Source: Terriglobia bacterium
Lineage (GTDB): Bacteria > Acidobacteriota > Terriglobia > UBA7540
Assembly (NCBI GenBank): GCA_035712365.1
Contig: DASTAW010000041.1
Coordinates: 1 to 64,000 of the forward strand
DNA length: 64,000 nt
Reading direction: 5' to 3'
Part shown: positions 5,186-63,919 of the stretch, one piece after another
Position numbering within the stretch: the first letter of the stretch is position 1
Layout: each line of letters opens with the position of its first letter
The notes under the pieces: model-generated
The model's database searches: none
What the model was told of the DNA's origin: nothing
The model's input: the letters and a program-made list of their open reading frames with translations, nothing else
Program-made: the position numbers and the translations under genes

Positions 5186-7624
5186 CTAGTGAGAAAGTGG
5201 CGTGGCCGAAACCAGCTTGTCATTCACAGGGCGATAATACAGAGATTCATTCTCTACGACAACCTCCAAAACCGCCGGAGGCTGGATTTCACCCTGAATC
5301 AGGGCTTCCGAGAGCGGGTCCTCGATGTATTTCTGTAACGCCCGCCGCAACGGCCGGGCCCCGTATGACCGATCTGAACACGTCTTCTCCAGTATCCACT
5401 TTCCGGCTTCGGGGGAAAGGGTCAGGGAGAGGTTCCTCTGCGCCAGATGCTGGTTCATGTTGTTGACCAGCAGATCGAGGATCTGTAGCATGTCATTGTC
5501 GTTCAAGGCATTAAAGATAATGATTTCGTCGAGCCGGTTCAGGAACTCCGGATTGAACAGCCGTTTGACCTCGCCCATAACCAGGTCGCCCAGCTTTTTG
5601 TCCGTTGCCCCCTCCGTCGCTGACTGGAAGCCCAGATTCGAGCGCCGCTCCAGATACCTGGCCCCGATATTCGAGGTCATGATAATAATGGTGTTCTTGA
5701 AGTCGACCGTATTTCCCAGCCCGTCCGTCAACTGCCCGTCTTCAAAAACCTGGAGAAGAATATTGAAGATGTCGGGGTGGGCTTTCTCAATTTCGTCCAG
5801 CAGGATCAGCGAATAGGGTGAACGCCGCACCCGCTCCGTCAACTGCCCGCCTTCCTCGTACCCCACGTAGCCCGGAGGCGAGCCAATCAGCTTGGACACG
5901 GAGTGCTTTTCCATAAACTCCGACATGTCGAAACGTATCAGCACCCGCTCGCTGTTGAACAGGATCGCTGCCAGCGACCTTGCCATTTCCGTTTTCCCGA
6001 CGCCCGTGGGCCCTAGGAAGAGGAACGAACCCACCGGCCTGCCGGGGGGCTTCAGCCCGGCCCGTGAACGGCGGATGGCCCTTGCCAGCGCCGCAACCGC
6101 CGAATCCTGGCTGATGATGCGCTTGTGCAGCTCATCTTCCAGCCGTAGAAGCTTGGTCATCTCCTCTTCTTTGATCGAGCTGACAGGAATGCCCGTCCAG
6201 CGCGCGACAACGTCTTCAATGTCCGCCTTGGAAACCGAGCCGGTCGCCGTTTCATCGATGTTGTACTTTTCGCGCAGCAGCCGCAGGTTCTCGCGCTCCT
6301 TGCGCTCTTCGTCGGAATAAAAACGCGCCTTCTCAAATTCGTGGTTCGCGATGGCGTTTTCCATCCTGTGGACTACAAACTTGATCCGCTTCTGGACCTC
6401 GGTCATTTCTTCCGGCAGGGTGCTCTGGCGCAACTTGACGCGCGCCCCCGCTTCGTCGATCAGGTCAACGGCCTTGTCGGGCAGGAAGCGGTCGGGAATG
6501 TACCGGCTGGAGAGGTACACGGAATTCGTAATGGCTTCGTCCCCATACGTCACCGCATGGAACTTCTCGTAGCGTTCCTTGATGCCGAACAGAATCTTGA
6601 TGGTCTGCCCCTCGTCCGGAGGCGGGACCTTGACCGCCTGGAACCGCCTTTCGAGTGAGCGGTCCCGCTCAATGGACTTCCGGAACTCGGCCGGAGTCGT
6701 CGCGCCGATGCATTGGATTTCGCCCCGCGAAAGGGCCGGCTTGAGAATGTTGGCCGCGTCAAGTGAACCTTCGGCCGAGCCCGCGCCGACCAGCGTGTGG
6801 AGTTCGTCAATAAAGATGATGGCGTTCTGCGCCTCCATCAATTCTTTCATGATGGTCTTCAGGCGCTCCTCAAACTGTCCGCGATACTTGGTGCCCGCCA
6901 CAATCAGCGACAGATCAAGGGCCAGAATCCGTTTGTCGGAAAGGAAGGATGGAACGTCTCCTTCGGCGATGCGTTCCGCCAGGCCCTCAACAATAGCCGT
7001 TTTGCCAACACCCGGCTCTCCGATCAACACAGGATTGTTTTTCGTTCGGCGGCAGAGAATCTGGATGACGCGCTCGACCTCATTTTCCCGGCCGACCAAA
7101 GGATCAAGCTGATTTTCCATCGCTGCCTGGGTCAGGTCGCGGCTGAATTCGGAAAGCAACGAAGTCTCTTTGGCACGGTTCGCAGAAACCTTTTCGCTCT
7201 GTGTACGGCTCAACTCTTCCCGTAGCGTGGACAACCGGAGCCCGCGCTCGTGGAGAATCTCCGCCGCAAACGATTTGTCCTCCCGGAGAAGACCCAGCAG
7301 AAGATGTTCGGTTCCGATGTGTTTATGGGCCAGGCGCTCGGCTTCTTCGGCGGCGTAGGCAAGCACGCGCTTGCATTCCTGGCTGAGAGGCAGCTCAACG
7401 GACGTTGACACTTTTTCCCGAACGGGAATGTGTCCCTCTACCTGCTTGCGAATGGATTCAATGGATGCGTGGGAACGCAAGAAGCGGTTGGTGAGCGCTT
7501 TGTCTTCACGCAGCAAACCGAGCAGCAGGTGTTCGGTTTCGATATAGGGGCTTCCAAACTGGCTGGCCTCATATCGGGCAAAGAAAATAACACGCCGGGC
7601 TTTTTCTGTGTATCTCTCGAACAT
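5186..7624 (-). CDS. clpC: ClpC-type AAA+ unfoldase of the Clp protease
   Basis: ATP-driven unfoldase that feeds proteins to ClpP. It begins [20 protein letters not shown], the canonical ClpC start. Two Clp-N repeats (about 1-145) precede AAA1 (Walker A GEPGVGKT at 202-209), a UVR-like middle segment (about 405-450, [16 protein letters not shown]) and AAA2 (GPTGVGKT at 538-545). The loop [12 protein letters not shown] (LGF at 664-666) matches the ClpP-docking tripeptide position. The length of 812 residues is normal. It is placed between bamA and lolD on the same strand; no functional link to outer-membrane assembly is known, so the position may simply reflect co-transcription. Confidence 0.93.
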
Positions 7625-45564: not shown

Positions 45565-48201
45565 CTATCTCCGCGCGGCTTTGGCCTTGGCGGGTGTAAA
45601 GGTCATCTCGCCCTTTTTCGGGTCGGCGCCCACCTCGATGGCTTCGCCGGCCTTGACTTGGCCCTCCAGGATTTTGAGCGCCAGCGGGTCCTGGATGAGG
45701 CGCTGGATGGCGCGCTTGAGCGGCCGCGCTCCGAACTGTGGGTCGTAGCCGCGCTCAAAAAGCAACTCGCGCGCCGCAGGCGTGAGTTCGATGGTGAGCT
45801 TGCGGTCTGCCAGCAACCCGCGCAGATGGCTGAGTTGCAGGTCAATGATCTTGGTGATCTGCTCCTTGCCGAGCGGATTAAAGATCACAACTTCATCCAC
45901 GCGGTTCAGGAATTCCGGTCGAAAATTATCCAGCAGCGAAGCCCGAATGCGCTGTTTGAGATCTTCCGAGAGCTTGCCGGTCTCGCCGCCCGCTCCGGTC
46001 ATCGCTTCGTGGATCATATGGCTGCCGATGTTGCTGGTCATAATGATGACCGTGTTCTTAAAGTCCACCGTGCGGCCCTTGCCGTCGGTCAGCCGGCCCT
46101 CGTCGAGAATCTGCAGGAAGATGTTGAACACGTCCGCGTGCGCCTTCTCGATTTCGTCAAACAGAAGGACCGAGTACGGACGCCGCCGCACCTGCTCGGT
46201 GAGCTGGCCGCCTTCTTCGTAACCCACGTAACCCGGCGGAGCGCCGATCAGCCGCGCTACGGCGTGCTTCTCCATGTACTCAGACATGTCGATGCGGAGC
46301 ATGGCTTTCTCATCATCGAACAGAAACTCGGCCAGCGCCCGCGCCAGTTCCGTCTTGCCCACGCCCGTGGGCCCCAGGAAAATGAAACTGCCGATGGGGC
46401 GGTTCGGGTCGGAAAGGCCCGCCCGGCTGCGGCGCACGGCGTTGGCCACCAGGTTCAGCGCTTCTTCCTGGCCCACCACGCGCAGCCGCAGGCGGTCTTC
46501 CATGCTCACCAGCTTGGCCAATTCGCCCTCCAGCATCTTCGAGACAGGAATGCCCGTCCACTTGGAAACCACGCGGGCCACGTCCTCTTCGTCCACTTCT
46601 TCCTTCAGCATGCGCCCGCCTTTTTCCTTGCCTTCGAGTTCGGCGTTGGTCGCGGCAAGCTGCTTTTGGAGCGTCACAAGCTGGCCGTAGCGAATTTCGG
46701 CAGCTTTGTTCAGATCGCCTTCGCGAGTGGCGCGCTGCTCTTCCACCTTGGCCTGCTCGATTTCCGACTTCAACTGGCGGATGCGGGTGATGATTTCCTT
46801 CTCGGCCCTCCAGCGCAGCTTCAGACGGTCCGACTCCTCGCGCAGGTGCGCGAGTTCTGCTTCCAGCTTCTCGAGGCGCTCGCGCGAAGCAGAATCATCT
46901 TCCTTCTTCAGCGCCTGCTTTTCAATTTCCAGTTGCGTGATGCGCCGTTCGATCTGGTCGATCTCCGACGGCATCGAGTCGATTTCAATTCGCAGGCTGG
47001 AAGCCGCTTCGTCAATCAGGTCGATGGCCTTATCCGGCAGAAAACGGTCGGTAATGTAGCGGTTCGAAAGCACCGCGGCAGCGACGATCGCCGAGTCCTT
47101 GATTCGCACGCCGTGATGAACTTCATAGCGTTCCTTCAGGCCGCGCAGGATGGCGATGGTGTCTTCCACACTCGGCTGGCCCACCAGCACCGGCTGGAAG
47201 CGCCGCTCGAGCGCAGCGTCTTTTTCGATATGCTTCTTGTATTCGTTCAGCGTGGTGGCGCCGATGCAACGCAATTCTCCGCGCGCCAGCGCCGGCTTCA
47301 GCATGTTGGAAGCGTCAATCGCGCCCTCGGCCGCGCCCGCGCCCACCAGGGTGTGAAGCTCGTCGATGAAAAGAATGACTTGCCCGCTGGACTCTTCGAT
47401 CTCCTTCAGCACAGCCTTGAGGCGGTCTTCGAATTCGCCGCGATATTTTGACCCGGCTACCAATGCGCCCAGATCGAGCGCCACAATACGCTTTGACTTC
47501 AAGGACTCAGGCACGTCGCCCGCTACGATGCGCTGCGCAATGCCTTCCACAATGGCCGTTTTGCCCACGCCAGGCTCGCCGATCAGCACCGGGTTGTTCT
47601 TGGTGCGACGCGAAAGCACCTGAATCACGCGGCGGATTTCATCGTCGCGGCCAATGACCGGATCGAGCTTGCCGCGCCGGGCCAGGTCCGTCAGGTCGCG
47701 CGCATAGCGTTCCAGCGCCTGGTATTTCGCTTCAGGGTTCTGGTCCGTAACGCGCTGCGAACCGCGAATGGCCACCAGCGCCTTCAATATGGCGTCATGC
47801 GTTACGCCCAGGCGATTAAGGATTGCGCCCGCCGCGTCGCTCTTCTTCCTCGCCAGCGCCAGCAACAGGTGCTCGGTGGACACAAACTCATCCTTAAATT
47901 GCTCGGTCTCTTTTGCCGCCTGCTCCAGCACATCCTTGAGCGCCGGAGAAAGATAATGGTCCGCCGTCCCGCCCACCTTGGGCAGGCGCTCGATCGCCTT
48001 CTCCACTTCCTGGCTTACGACCGAGGGCGCCACGCCCAGCCGCTCAAGAATTGCGGGCACAATCCCTTCCGGCTGTTCGAGCAGCGCCAGCAGTAAATGG
48101 ACGGATTCCAGTTGCTGGTTGCCGAAACGGCCCGCGACGTCCTGCGTGTTCTGTAAGGCTTCCTGGGCCTTAATGGTGAACTTGTCAAATCGAGTTGCCA
48201 T
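45565..48201 (-). CDS. clpB: ClpB disaggregase
   Basis: Heat-shock disaggregase working with DnaK. It starts [20 protein letters not shown] at the ATG at 48201 (AAGGA about 7 nt upstream; a second ATG at 48207 is too close to it). Domains: Clp-N (1-150), AAA1 (GEPGVGKT at about 208), coiled-coil middle domain (about 405-525, a long Glu/Arg/Lys-rich region that distinguishes ClpB from ClpC), AAA2 (GPTGVGKT) and a C-terminal AAA lid. ClpB lacks the ClpP-docking loop. It is downstream of two hsp20 genes on the same strand but separated from them by a terminator. Confidence 0.96.
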
Positions 48202-48309
48202 ATCCATTCCTTCTTAAGATTGATGTAACCTTAAAACCTGGCGCGCCGGCCCCCCCGTCAACGTGTTCTCTACATTATGCTCCGACAAAACAGGCTTTGC
48301 AGGCTGCTG

Positions 48310-48415: not shown

Positions 48416-48865
48416 TCATTTGGCGATGCTGATTTTGATCTTCTTCGCTTTTGCCTCTTCCTTCTTGGGCATGGTCAGTGTCAGGACGCCGTCCTTGAAC
48501 TCCGCCTGCACCTTATCCGCATCCACGGAGGCCGGTAATTCGAAGCTCCGCGCAAAGCTGCCGTACGCTCGCTCCACGTGATGGTAGCTTTCTTCCTTCA
48601 CTTCTTTTTCGTACTTGCGCTCGCCCTTCAGATAAAGCGTACCTTCGTGCACGGTGGCTTCAACGTCCTTGGGATCGACGCCGGGCAGTTCCGCCGTCAG
48701 CACAACGTTCTGCTCGGTCTCGTAGATATCCACCGAAGGAACCCATGCGCCCGACCGAATCCCTTCACTTCCCATGAACCGTCCCATCGTCTCATTGAAG
48801 AGCCGGTTGAGACGGTCCTGGGTTGTAACTAAATCACGAAAAGGTTCCCATCGTACGATTGGCAT
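48416..48865 (-). CDS. Small heat-shock protein Hsp20
   Basis: 149 residues from the ATG at 48865, 10 nt after AAGGAGGT; the frame can extend to 48940. The alpha-crystallin domain spans GAWVPSVDIYETEQNVVLTAELPGVDPKD to DGVLTLTMPKKEEAKAKKIKISIAK, with the conserved GVLTLTMPK. It holds unfolding proteins for refolding by DnaK and ClpB. It is the second of two hsp20 genes in tandem; a GC-rich hairpin (48912-48930) lies between them. Confidence 0.93.
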   Translation of the reverse strand: MPIVRWEPFRDLVTTQDRLNRLFNETMGRFMGSEGIRSGAWVPSVDIYETEQNVVLTAELPGVDPKDVEATVHEGTLYLKGERKYEKEVKEESYHHVERAYGSFARSFELPASVDADKVQAEFKDGVLTLTMPKKEEAKAKKIKISIAK

Positions 48866-48962
48866 TTTATTCATACCTCCTTCACTTGACTCTTGATACT
48901 TCGTTATTGGCCTGGCCCGTTGCGGGCCGGCTGATTCCATTTGCCGGTTCCAGTCGCGGTTC

Positions 48963-49445
48963 TCAGGCCTTTGAAACGGCGATCTTGATCGACTTCGGTT
49001 TCGCTGCTTCGCGCTTGGGCATGGTCAGGGTCAGAACCCCATCCTGGTATTCCGCCTTCACCCTGTCCGAGTCAATCGAATTTGGAAGCGAAAAGCTTCG
49101 CGTAAACGTTCCGTATGGCCGCTCAACCCGGTGGAGGTTCTCCTCCTTGGCATCCTTCTCGAACTTCCTCTCGCCTTTCAGATAGAGAGTGCCGCCTTCG
49201 ACCCGGATTTCCACGTCATCAGGATTGATTCCCGGCAGCTCCGCCTTCAGCACCAGGCTGCTCTCAGTCTCACAAATGTCTACAGGCGGTACCCAGGTCT
49301 GCAGCCAAGCCTTCTTCTGATCGCCGAAAGCCCGGGCAAAGGTTTCGTTGAAAAGCTGGTTGAAATGGTCGTGTGTCGAAACGAGATCACGAAATGGTTC
49401 CCTTGGATAATAAGCATCTCTGGCCCACCTCCTCACTTTTATCAT
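48963..49445 (-). CDS. Small heat-shock protein Hsp20
   Basis: 160 residues. The alpha-crystallin domain runs from TWVPPVDICETESSLVLKAELPGINPDDVE to DGVLTLTMPKREAAKPKSIKIAV. It is a close paralogue of the next gene (NETFARAF/NETMGRF, GTLYLKGERKFEKD/GTLYLKGERKYEKE). The ATG at 49445 lacks a normal ribosome binding site and lies only about 6 nt after the predicted transcription start, so translation is near-leaderless. The promoter shares its sequence with that of dnaK. Confidence 0.93.
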   Translation of the reverse strand: MIKVRRWARDAYYPREPFRDLVSTHDHFNQLFNETFARAFGDQKKAWLQTWVPPVDICETESSLVLKAELPGINPDDVEIRVEGGTLYLKGERKFEKDAKEENLHRVERPYGTFTRSFSLPNSIDSDRVKAEYQDGVLTLTMPKREAAKPKSIKIAVSKA

Positions 49446-49457
49446 TAGTCTGCTTGA

Positions 49458-49486
49458 ATAATAAAAGCTTAGTGTCGCATTGTCAA
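49458..49486 (-). promoter_or_regulatory. hsp20 promoter with dnaK-like spacer sequence
   Basis: On the minus strand TTGACA (49486-49481), a 17-nt spacer and TATTAT (49463-49458). The spacer contains ACACTAAG at the same place as in the dnaK promoter; 25 of 29 positions are identical between the two. Confidence 0.85.
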
Positions 49487-49781
49487 GTATTTTATTAAGC
49501 TTCTTTTGCAGTAGTTTACACGAACATTTGAGAAGACAAGCACAACGTGTATGCCATTTCCACCTCCGGCCAAGCCCTCGGCCCTATTAGATGATGGCAG
49601 GTTGTTGTCCGCCGCAACTTTGGGTGATTTTCATATTGTCTAGATCGACGGGAAGTCGTCGTTGCGCGTGGTTTCTGCGGCTTGCCTGGTGGAATTGCGC
49701 TAAGTGACCATGCGCAGGCGGCAAATTCGTGATAAACTCGTCACCATCTTCACCAAAATTGGGCGTGGGGAGGTTAAAACG
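49487..49781. other. Intergenic between divergent hsp20 and peroxiredoxin genes
   Basis: No gene. The upstream part is AT-rich near the hsp20 promoter. No consensus promoter for the peroxiredoxin was found. Confidence 0.4.
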
Positions 49782-59543: not shown

Positions 59544-59736
59544 CTGAAGCGTCTCCTGTCGAAAATACTGCGGTTAAGCCATTAGCTTACTACACGATGA
59601 GGCGTTGCGGCGCACAGGGTTGCGAAGGCCAGGAATTTCAGGGTAGCTCTGCTGTCGCTTGAACGGTTAAGCCGCTCAGCTTTCAGGAACCTTGAAGCAG
59701 GTAAGCCTTTAGATACGTGTCCGTTACAAATCCACA
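59544..59736. other. Intergenic between divergent queF and dnaK
   Basis: Contains the queF leader. No gene seen. Confidence 0.4.
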
Positions 59737-59765
59737 TTGACAATGGCACACTAAGACTTTATTAT
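59737..59765 (+). promoter_or_regulatory. dnaK promoter with hsp20-like spacer sequence
   Basis: TTGACA (59737-59742), a 17-nt spacer with ACACTAAG, and TATTAT (59760-59765). 25 of its 29 positions are identical to the hsp20 promoter at 49458-49486. A leader of about 100 nt follows, with CTCTA-TG-TAGAG at 59801-59812. Confidence 0.85.
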
Positions 59766-59824
59766 ATGGTGAAACTAAATTACGGACTCTGCATCTAAGG
59801 CTCTATGTAGAGATATAGGTGGGG

Positions 59825-59876: not shown

Positions 59877-61826
59877 ATGGCAAAGATAATAGGCATTGAT
59901 CTAGGCACGACCAACTCGGTCGTCGCGGTGATGGAGGGTGGTGAGCCCAAGGTCATCACGAATCCGGAAGGTGGCCGCACGACACCGTCGGTGGTGGCGT
60001 TTACCAAGAGCGGCGAGCGACTGGTGGGCCAGGTGGCCAAACGCCAGGCAATCACGAACCCGGAAAACACCGTCTATTCGATCAAACGATTTATGGGGCG
60101 CCGTTACAACGAGATCCAGAATGAGATCAAGACGGTTCCCTACAAAGTGGTTGCGGCCACCAACGGCGACTGCCGTGTGGTGGCGCAGGGCAAAGAGTAT
60201 TCTCCGCCGGAAATTTCGGCGATGATCCTGCAAAAAATGCGGGATGCGGCGGAACAGTATCTGGGGGAAAGCGTCACCCAGGCGGTGGTGACAGTCCCGG
60301 CGTATTTCAATGACAGCCAGCGGCAGGCCACCAAAGACGCGGGCAAGATTGCCGGCCTTGACGTGCTGCGGATTGTAAACGAGCCGACGGCGGCTGCGCT
60401 GGCATACGGCCTGGACAAAAAGAAGGACGAGACCATCGCGGTTTACGACTTTGGCGGCGGAACATTTGACATCTCGATCCTCGAGGTCGGCGAAGGCGTG
60501 GTTGAGGTGAAATCGACCAACGGCGACACCCATCTGGGCGGCGACGACATTGACAAGCGTGTGATTGACTGGATTGTGGAGGAGTTCCGCAAAGACCAGG
60601 GAATCGATCTCTCGAAGGACCGCATGGCGCTGCAAAGGCTAAAGGAAGCGGCTGAAAAGGCCAAGATGGAGCTGTCCACGGTGCTGGAGACGGAAATCAA
60701 TCTGCCGTTTATCACCGCGGACGCTTCCGGACCCAAACACCTGAGCCTAAAGCTTACACGGGCGCGCTTTGAACAAATGTGCGAAGACATTTTCCAGCGT
60801 TCGGTGGGCCCAGTGAAGGAGGCCCTGAAGGATGCCGGTGTTGAGCCAAGCAAGATCGATGAAGTGGTGCTGGTGGGCGGGTCGACGCGTATCCCCCGTG
60901 TCCAGAAGATCGTGAAGGACCTGTTCGATGGAAAAGAGCCCCATAAGGGCGTCAATCCGGACGAAGTTGTGGCCATCGGCGCTGCCGTGCAGGCCGGCGT
61001 GCTGGGCGGCGAGGTGAAAGACCTGTTGCTGCTCGACGTGACTCCTCTGACGCTGGGCCTTGAAACTCTGGGCGGAGTGATGACTCCACTGATTCAACGC
61101 AATACGACGATTCCGACACGGAAGACCGAGACGTTCTCGACAGCGGCGGACAACCAGCCATCGGTTGAAATCCACGTGCTCCAGGGTGAGCGCCCCAGCG
61201 CCAAAGACAACCGGACGCTTGGCAAGTTCCAGTTGGTTGGAATTCCCCCTGCGCAGCGTGGCATTCCGCAGATTGAAGTAACATTCGACATCGACGCTAA
61301 CGGAATTCTGAACGTATCTGCGAAAGACACCGGCACTGGTCGCGAGCAGAAGATCACCATCACCTCTTCCAGCGGCCTTTCCAAGGACGAGGTGGAGCGA
61401 ATGAAGCAGGAAGCGGACCTCCACGCCGATGAAGATCGCCGCTACAAAGACGAAGTGGAGGTGAAAAACCGGGCCGATTCGCTCGTTTACTCCGTGGAGA
61501 AAACACTGAAGGACAACCGCGACAAGATTTCAGAAGCGGATGCCAGGAACATCGAGGCGGCGGTTGACGACGCCAAGAAGTCCATTCAGGAAGGCAAGCT
61601 GGAAGCCATCAATGCGGCCGTAGAACGGCTGACCCAGGCATCTCACAAGCTGGCCGAGGCCATGTACAAGCAGCAGGCTGGCACGTCTGCTCCGCCCCCG
61701 CCGGGAGGTGAAGCCGGTTCAGGGCAGGCCAGCGCGGCCGGCGGAACCAGTGAAGACAAGTCCAGAGACGGAGGTGAAGTGATCGACGCTGAAGTTGTGG
61801 AGGGAGAAGACAAGAACAAGAAGTAA
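59877..61826 (+). CDS. dnaK: Chaperone DnaK (Hsp70)
   Basis: ATP-driven chaperone. It starts [22 protein letters not shown] and has the Hsp70 signatures [16 protein letters not shown] and [16 protein letters not shown]. The nucleotide-binding domain is about 1-385, the linker DLLLLDV near 387, the substrate-binding domain about 393-505, and a helical lid and Gly/Ala-rich tail follow. The length of 649 residues is normal. It heads dnaK-(74-aa gene)-dnaJ-hspR; no grpE is in the cluster. The ATG is preceded by GGAGG 9 nt away. Confidence 0.98.
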
Positions 61827-62286: not shown

Positions 62287-63483
62287 ATGCCGGCGGGAAC
62301 CAAACAGAAGGATTATTATGGCGATTTGGGAGTAGACCGCGCCGCCAAGGCTGACCAGATCCGGAAAGCTTACCGTCGGCTTGCCAGAAAGCACCATCCT
62401 GATGTGAACCCAGGTAATAAGCAGGCGGAAGAAAAATTCAAAGAAATCCAGGAAGCGTACAACGTTCTCAGCGACGAAAAAAAACGGAAGATTTACGATC
62501 AGTATGGATTCTACTCCGATAATATTCCAGCCGACGCTTACGAGGCTTATGCGAGAGGCCCCGTGGAGGACGCCAAAAATGGTCCGCGCGTCGATTTCTC
62601 CGGCTTCGATTTCTCTGATTTCACTCCCCAGGAAGAGCGCCCGGCGGGGTTTGGTTCAACTTTTCGCGACATCTTCTCCCAAATTTTCACGCGCGGAGGC
62701 GAAGGCCCGGAAGCCGCGGCGGGGCCGGCTCGCGGGCGAGACATCGAGCACCACATGCACCTGGGCTTCTGGGACGCGATACGAGGAACCCAGGTCCGGA
62801 TTACCATCGGCAGGGAAGAAGTTTGCGCCGCCTGCAACGGTAAGGGAACCCAGGCAGGCCCGGCGGTGACCTGCCCGGCCTGCGGCGGCAGCGGAAAAGT
62901 CCAGCGGACCGCGGGGGCAATGCGCTTTTCGACGACCTGTCCGCAGTGCGGCGGCACAGGACGGCAACAGAGCCCCTGCCCCTCATGCAAAGGAACGGGA
63001 CATATCCGCAAGCCGGAGACGTTTGACGTGAGAATCCCGCCGGGTGTCGACTCGGGATCGCGGGTCCGCGTACCGGGAAAGGGCAACGCTGGCGCTAACG
63101 GCGGACCGCCGGGCGACCTGTATATTCTGACCGACGTCGAGCCTCATCCATATTTCGAACGCAAGGGAGATAACTTTTACGTCAAGGTGCCGATCAGCGT
63201 CACCGAGGCCGCGCTGGGCACAAAAGTTGAGGTGCCAACCATCGACGGGCCCACGACCATTCGGATTCCTCCCGGCACTCAGGGCGGACAAAAGCTCCGC
63301 ATCCGCGGGAAAGGCGCGCCCTCGCTGCGGGCGAGTCAGCGCGGCGATCAGTTCGTGGAAGTTGAGATCAAGATCCCGCGAGTGGCCGACGAGCGCAGCA
63401 AGGAAATCCTGAAAGAACTTGACCGGCTGAATCCGTCAGATCTTCGCAGCGACTTGCGGAAGTACTTCAAGGTCCCGATGTAG
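62287..63483 (+). CDS. dnaJ: Chaperone DnaJ (Hsp40)
   Basis: 398 residues from the ATG at 62287 (AGGGG about 8 nt upstream; the frame is open to 62137). J domain with HHPDVN in [32 protein letters not shown], then a Gly/Phe-poor linker with [12 protein letters not shown], four CxxCxGxG zinc repeats ([32 protein letters not shown]) and a C-terminal peptide-binding domain. This is a complete type I DnaJ that stimulates DnaK ATPase. Confidence 0.95.
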
Positions 63484-63520: not shown

Positions 63521-63919
63521 ATGGCAAAACGAGGCAGAAAACCCCGGGGCAAAGCAGGCTACATGATCAGCGCCGTGGCGGAAATGTATAGCATCCATCC
63601 GCAGACGCTGCGCCTTTACGAGCGCGAAGGTCTGCTGATTCCTTCGCGGAGTGAAGGCAACACGCGTTTTTATACTGGTGAGGACCTGGAGGCGCTCGAA
63701 ACCATTCTGAGCCTGACCCGTGACCTGGGCGTCAACCTGGCAGGTGTGGAAATCATTTTGAACATGCGAAAACGCATGGAGGAAATGGGAAAAGAAATGC
63801 AGGAGTTCGTCAAATATGTGGAGAAGGAAGTTATCACCCGAACCGGCGAGCCCCCCGAAGAGATGCAGAACGCGCTTGTCCGGGTCATCCCGCCTTACCT
63901 GATCCGGATGCGCCGCTGA
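63521..63919 (+). CDS. hspR: HspR, MerR-type heat-shock repressor
   Basis: 132 residues. A MerR-type winged helix: MISAVAEMYSIHPQTLRLYEREGLLIPSRSEGNTRFYTGEDLEALETI, followed by a coiled-coil dimerisation helix (GVEIILNMRKRMEEMGKEMQEFVKYVEKEV). In Actinobacteria and Helicobacter HspR represses dnaK operons by binding HAIR sites, with DnaK as corepressor. It is the last gene of the dnaK cluster, 37 nt after dnaJ. It is the best candidate regulator of the two similar heat-shock promoters in this window. Confidence 0.92.
   Translation: MAKRGRKPRGKAGYMISAVAEMYSIHPQTLRLYEREGLLIPSRSEGNTRFYTGEDLEALETILSLTRDLGVNLAGVEIILNMRKRMEEMGKEMQEFVKYVEKEVITRTGEPPEEMQNALVRVIPPYLIRMRR

Follow-up and report, generated by a model that had tools for sequence, protein, structure and literature searches.

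Analysis of a 64,000-nucleotide stretch of a Terriglobia bacterium genome (contig DASTAW010000041.1, positions 1 to 64,000; hereafter the window) points strongly to the conclusion that the 29-bp promoters of hsp20 and dnaK are both sigma-A promoters with a built-in HAIR-type operator for the heat-shock repressor HspR. Judged from the sequence, this predicted operator has a left arm, CTTGACA, that is at once the -35 box; its right arm, ACTMAN, is situated inside the spacer, 7 nt on. The sequence, geometry, conservation, gene content and regulon size of the element were determined in the present analysis, and the features of the window are collected in Table 1.

Table 1 Predicted regulatory elements and heat-shock genes of the window.
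Feature	Position	Strand	Evidence or remark
hsp20 sigma-A promoter with embedded HAIR-type operator (predicted)	49458..49487	-	sequence; leave-genus-out profile R2, E=4.1e-5 genome-wide
hsp20 operator parts	left arm/-35 CTTGACA 49487-49481, N7, right arm ACTAAGC 49473-49467, -10 TATTAT 49463-49458	-	
dnaK sigma-A promoter with embedded HAIR-type operator (predicted)	59736..59766	+	sequence; profile R2, E=1.9e-4 genome-wide
dnaK operator parts	left arm/-35 ATTGACA 59736-59742, N7, right arm ACTAAGA 59750-59756, -10 TATTAT 59760-59765	+	
Third half-site-like element ACTAATG, hsp20	49443..49449	-	24 nt downstream of right-arm start; register +37
Third half-site-like element ACTAAAT, dnaK	59774..59780	+	near predicted transcription start
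Weak ECF-type promoter candidate GAAAC-N15-GCATCTAA, dnaK	59771..59798	+	sole window match; 0 expected
hsp20a, small heat-shock protein	48963..49445	-	PF00011 1.2e-25; ORF start uncertain
hsp20b, second small heat-shock protein, same likely operon	48416..48940	-	PF00011 7.6e-25; start likely further in
clpB, disaggregase, third gene of likely operon	45565..48207	-	TIGR03346 1379.5 bits, above cut-off
dnaK	59877..61826	+	TIGR02350 1003.8 bits, above cut-off
dnaJ	62305..63483	+	TIGR02349 386.9 bits, above cut-off; start set at J domain
hspR, MerR-type heat-shock repressor, likely reader of both operators	63521..63919	+	NF047375 HeatShock_HspR 4.7e-29

The hsp20 and dnaK promoters match across their spacers

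The hsp20 29-mer (minus strand, 49486-49458; TTGACAATGCGACACTAAGCTTTTATTAT) and the dnaK 29-mer (plus strand, 59737-59765; TTGACAATGGCACACTAAGACTTTATTAT) were identical at 25 of 29 positions, sharing both the -35 and the -10 box and 13 of the 17 spacer nucleotides, whereas their flanks agreed only at chance level (14/80 upstream and 22/80 downstream). This confirmed the match and the 17-nt separation of TTGACA and TATTAT reported by the first-pass annotation, and placed them between unrelated flanks. At least 13 spacer matches in 17 would arise by chance with a probability of 1.2e-5 (p=0.25 per position) or 1.0e-4 (p=0.30). Among the 25 promoter-like places of the window, defined by at least 9/12 agreement with TTGACA-N17-TATTAT, the other 23 resembled the hsp20 spacer at a mean of 4.3 and a maximum of 7 of 17 positions.

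The first-pass annotation had also proposed scanning the genome for the element. Allowing up to three mismatches to the 29-mer, we recovered the two window places only in 4,667,009 bases (reversed control, 0), so that the near-exact element occurs at hsp20 and dnaK alone. A relaxed genome-wide scan with the short motif TTGACA..ACACTAAG at three mismatches remained at noise level (27 matches versus 44 in the control), and thus only near-exact copies are informative.

At the hsp20a start (49415-49445, minus strand), the ATG at 49417 has a good ribosome site and, judged against three relatives, is one base out of frame with the remainder of the gene, and the listed in-frame ATG (49445) would fall just a few bases past the predicted transcript start; a frameshift, an assembly error or a changed start may underlie this anomaly. 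A second ClpB-like gene (6452-7621, minus strand) is approximately 50% identical to the N-terminal 400 residues of clpB.

The spacer motif has the geometry of HAIR

We aligned dnaK upstream regions with TTGACA and TATTAT as the sole anchors and the spacer disregarded, for 20 promoters from genomes of the window's order and, separately, for 35-36 promoters from other acidobacterial families. A second conserved block, ACTMAAG, emerged at +13 to +19, numbered from the leading T of the -35 box. Agreement with ACTCAAG in the HAIR register averaged 5.4/7 within the order (n=20) and 5.57/7 in the other families (n=35), against approximately 1.8 at other offsets. Across relatives the motif therefore reads CTTGACA-N7-ACTCAAG, with the same 7-7-7 layout as the HAIR consensus CTTGAGT-N7-ACTCAAG (PMC6102357); the minimal HspR operator of Streptomyces is TTGAGY-N7-ACTCAA (PMC2687793). 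Some relatives carry the full CTTGACA-N7-ACTCAAG with no deviation, and the right arm is an exact ACTCAAG in 4/20 promoters of the order and 5/35 from other families.

In the window's genus, the right arm has drifted from ACTCAAG to ACTAAG. The window copies match 8-9 of the 14 HAIR arm positions, compared with up to 12/14 in relatives, and a canonical HAIR scan of the window at three mismatches returned no matches, missing both operator copies. This drift hid HAIR from the first-pass annotation, whose statement that the element is not the classical HAIR has to be revised, given the exact HAIR geometry in relatives. The spacer looks conserved because the right arm of the predicted operator sits in it. 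In the other families, the -10 box drifts (TATNAT, GATAAT or TAGCAT) while CTTGACA-N7-ACTCAAG is kept, suggesting that the constraint comes from a repressor and not from a sigma factor. As for covariation of the outer pair, a C at -1 and a G at 19 were not associated.

A predicted two-site regulon and a probable HspR gene in the dnaK cluster

Profile R2, built from 28 sites with the window's genus left out, found only the two window sites in the 4.67-Mb genome up to E=10, with the 150 best preliminary candidates of the search scored. Profile R1, built with the window sites included, gave mostly one or two matches per genome over 40 related genomes. Those at E<=0.02 lay before dnaK or hsp20/clpB, as checked directly or by coordinates; all directly checked matches at E<=0.2 preceded dnaK or hsp20(-hsp20)-clpB, once clpB directly, and matches at unrelated places started only near E=0.3. 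Most of the 40 relatives carried the dnaK site and the hsp20 site as separate copies, in which the arms were kept and the N7 and flanks had diverged. The element, for which the first-pass annotation had contemplated loss in relatives or spread to unrelated genes, is thus kept in the former and absent before the latter. In Streptomyces, Mycobacterium and Deinococcus, dnaK, clpB and hsp20 are known to be under HspR control (PMC2687793).

The protein encoded last in the dnaK cluster scored 100.2 bits against the curated HspR model NF047375 (cut-off 105), and the next functional family followed approximately 60 bits lower, at 39.7 bits. All 19 aligned relatives matched the same model, and the order dnaK-dnaJ-hspR, with hspR last, held in the window and wherever a relative's contig was intact. 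The helix-turn-helix residues HPQTLR were invariant across the order, implying that the change from ACTCAAG to ACTAAG requires no new specificity. An hspR match was absent from 34 of 197 acidobacterial genomes; the culturable acidobacterium Terriglobus roseus DSM 18391 does possess a relative of hspR. Separately, a genome of the same genus holds a second dnaK copy (contig 141), 94.6% identical to the window dnaK over the compared part and carrying its own HAIR-type promoter, which represents either a paralogue or a mixed assembly.

A possible third half-site and a candidate ECF-type promoter

In both dnaK sets the second-best register for ACTCAAG was +37 (4.2/7 in the order and 3.54/7 in other families), 24 nt downstream of the right-arm start and close to where transcription is predicted to begin. 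An ACTAA element keeps this distance at the dnaK and the hsp20 promoters. CTAA occupied +37 in 37/64 TTGACA-N17-TANNNT promoters with a right arm versus 2/14 without, the two exceptions being hsp20 promoters with a degenerate arm. Regrouping these as heat-shock promoters gave 39/66 versus 0/12 (Fisher p=1.8e-4, which is optimistic because the sequences are related). The ACTAA element is possibly a third, position-locked HspR half-site.

A second motif accompanied these promoters. Among 47 regions upstream of dnaK or hsp20 in the order, 23 contained GCATCTA, where shuffles gave an expectation of 1.1. When GNAAC and GYATCT were paired at any distance, the spacing was N16 in 12 of 17 cases and N15 in 3, and the N16 pair also appeared in three dnaK upstream regions of other acidobacterial families. 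At several hsp20 promoters the pair and HAIR overlap, whereas at dnaK of the order the pair is found downstream of HAIR, and elsewhere its place varies; because it moves relative to HAIR, it is probably a separate, ECF-type promoter. No such motif was seen at the window hsp20.

Exact matches to the ECF-type motif in 40 genomes (14, versus approximately 19 in the reversed control) did not exceed background, and a large regulon was therefore rejected. At least five of the 14 precede dnaK or hsp20, and one outside these genes precedes htpX, as named from its translation. The sole GYAAC-N15-17-GCATCTAA match in the window's genome (contig 48, 316677-316704, N15) precedes a topoisomerase I-like gene, topA, likewise named from its translation.

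We put forward, at about even odds, a composite device that combines a sigma-A promoter whose -35 box is an HspR arm, a third half-site at the start and a roaming ECF promoter, GNAAC-N16-GCATCTA, through which envelope stress and unfolding would converge on dnaK/hsp20. Joint control by an ECF sigma factor, SigE, and HspR has been described for M. tuberculosis acr2 (PMC8565819).

Alternative readers and the proposed mechanism

The first-pass annotation had supposed that a regulator or a special sigma factor probably reads the element. A dedicated alternative sigma factor recognizing the entire 29-mer, spacer included, would account for the joint conservation of spacer and boxes and for ECF-type motifs in the same upstream regions; we nevertheless regard it as improbable, since the boxes are consensus sigma-A, the -10 box drifts in other families where both arms remain, and the ECF motif is a distinct element whose position shifts with respect to the 29-mer. 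Hence the regulator half of the supposition stands, with HspR the likely reader, and no special sigma factor is required. RpoH dependence was rejected as well: the genome encodes no RpoH above the TIGR02392 cut-off (best sigma-70-family match 138 bits versus 323), and the boxes are of the sigma-A type.

Equally little weight falls to a repressor other than HspR, either HrcA, which the genome does encode (203 bits), or some unknown factor, considering that the arms and their 7-nt spacing are those of HAIR and that hspR lies within the dnaK cluster. The HrcA operator CIRCE (TTAGCACTC-N9-GAGTGCTAA) had no match in the window at three mismatches, in agreement with the earlier remark that the element is unlike CIRCE. 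Recent duplication of one promoter, devoid of shared regulation, would explain 25/29 identity inside a single genome, but is most implausible given flanks at chance level and the separate persistence of both sites in the majority of the 40 relatives, where N7 and flanks diverged but the arms did not. TTGACA and TATTAT are common promoter boxes, yet coincidence is just as hard to credit with a spacer match at p of about 1e-5 to 1e-4 and conservation across the phylum.

DnaK is established as the HspR co-repressor and thermosensor in Streptomyces. By analogy with work in Streptomyces, Mycobacterium and Helicobacter on HspR binding, repression and DnaK feedback, we propose that HspR, the last-gene product of dnaK-dnaJ-hspR, would cover the -35 box and spacer and block sigma-A RNA polymerase. 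Upon heating, unfolded proteins would draw DnaK off, HspR would lose activity, and the dnaK-dnaJ-hspR and hsp20-hsp20-clpB operons would be released together, with feedback running through DnaK and HspR. The position of hspR within the dnaK cluster would render this loop autoregulatory, and the same operator at both promoters would allow the two main chaperone operons to switch on together.

Discussion

The window element is real and conserved, and is best explained as a drifted HspR operator-promoter of the HAIR type, a known kind; of greater interest is the putative composite architecture. On this reading, HspR, with a minimal regulon of two sites, would exert the main control over chaperones in Acidobacteriota, a soil phylum that is abundant yet little studied. 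A full-text literature search, with subscription papers mostly outside its reach, found no prior description in Acidobacteriota. More generally, a conserved spacer can be half an operator, and HAIR can drift beyond recognition in one genome while relatives reveal it; new features open to testing are the candidate third half-site and the putative ECF promoter that roams around the core.

Among known systems, RpoH (sigma-32) promoters likewise drive dnaK and small heat-shock genes, whereas the acidobacterial boxes are of the sigma-A type. CIRCE/HrcA shares the principle of an inverted repeat controlling chaperones and differs in sequence, CIRCE being absent from the window. Streptomyces HAIR/HspR shares the 21-bp arm-N7-arm structure, the right arm ACTCAA, the dnaK operon and clpB as targets and hspR in the dnaK cluster (PMC6102357, PMC2687793). 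The acidobacterial case differs in having a left arm, CTTGACA, that also serves as the -35 box, and a right arm that has drifted in the window's genus; hsp20 is included and no lon site was found; each promoter has one HAIR, compared with three at S. coelicolor dnaK. The HspR regulons of Deinococcus radiodurans and M. tuberculosis, members of other phyla, also contain hsp20/acr2, dnaK and clpB (PMC2687793), whereas the acidobacterial operator appears fused with the -35 box and has only two sites in the genome. Finally, H. pylori HspR operators are likewise imperfect HAIRs overlapping the promoter, and H. pylori HspR needs determinants outside HAIR over 70-80 bp (PMC6102357); the acidobacterial outer element, in contrast, would be a recognizable third half-site at a fixed distance.
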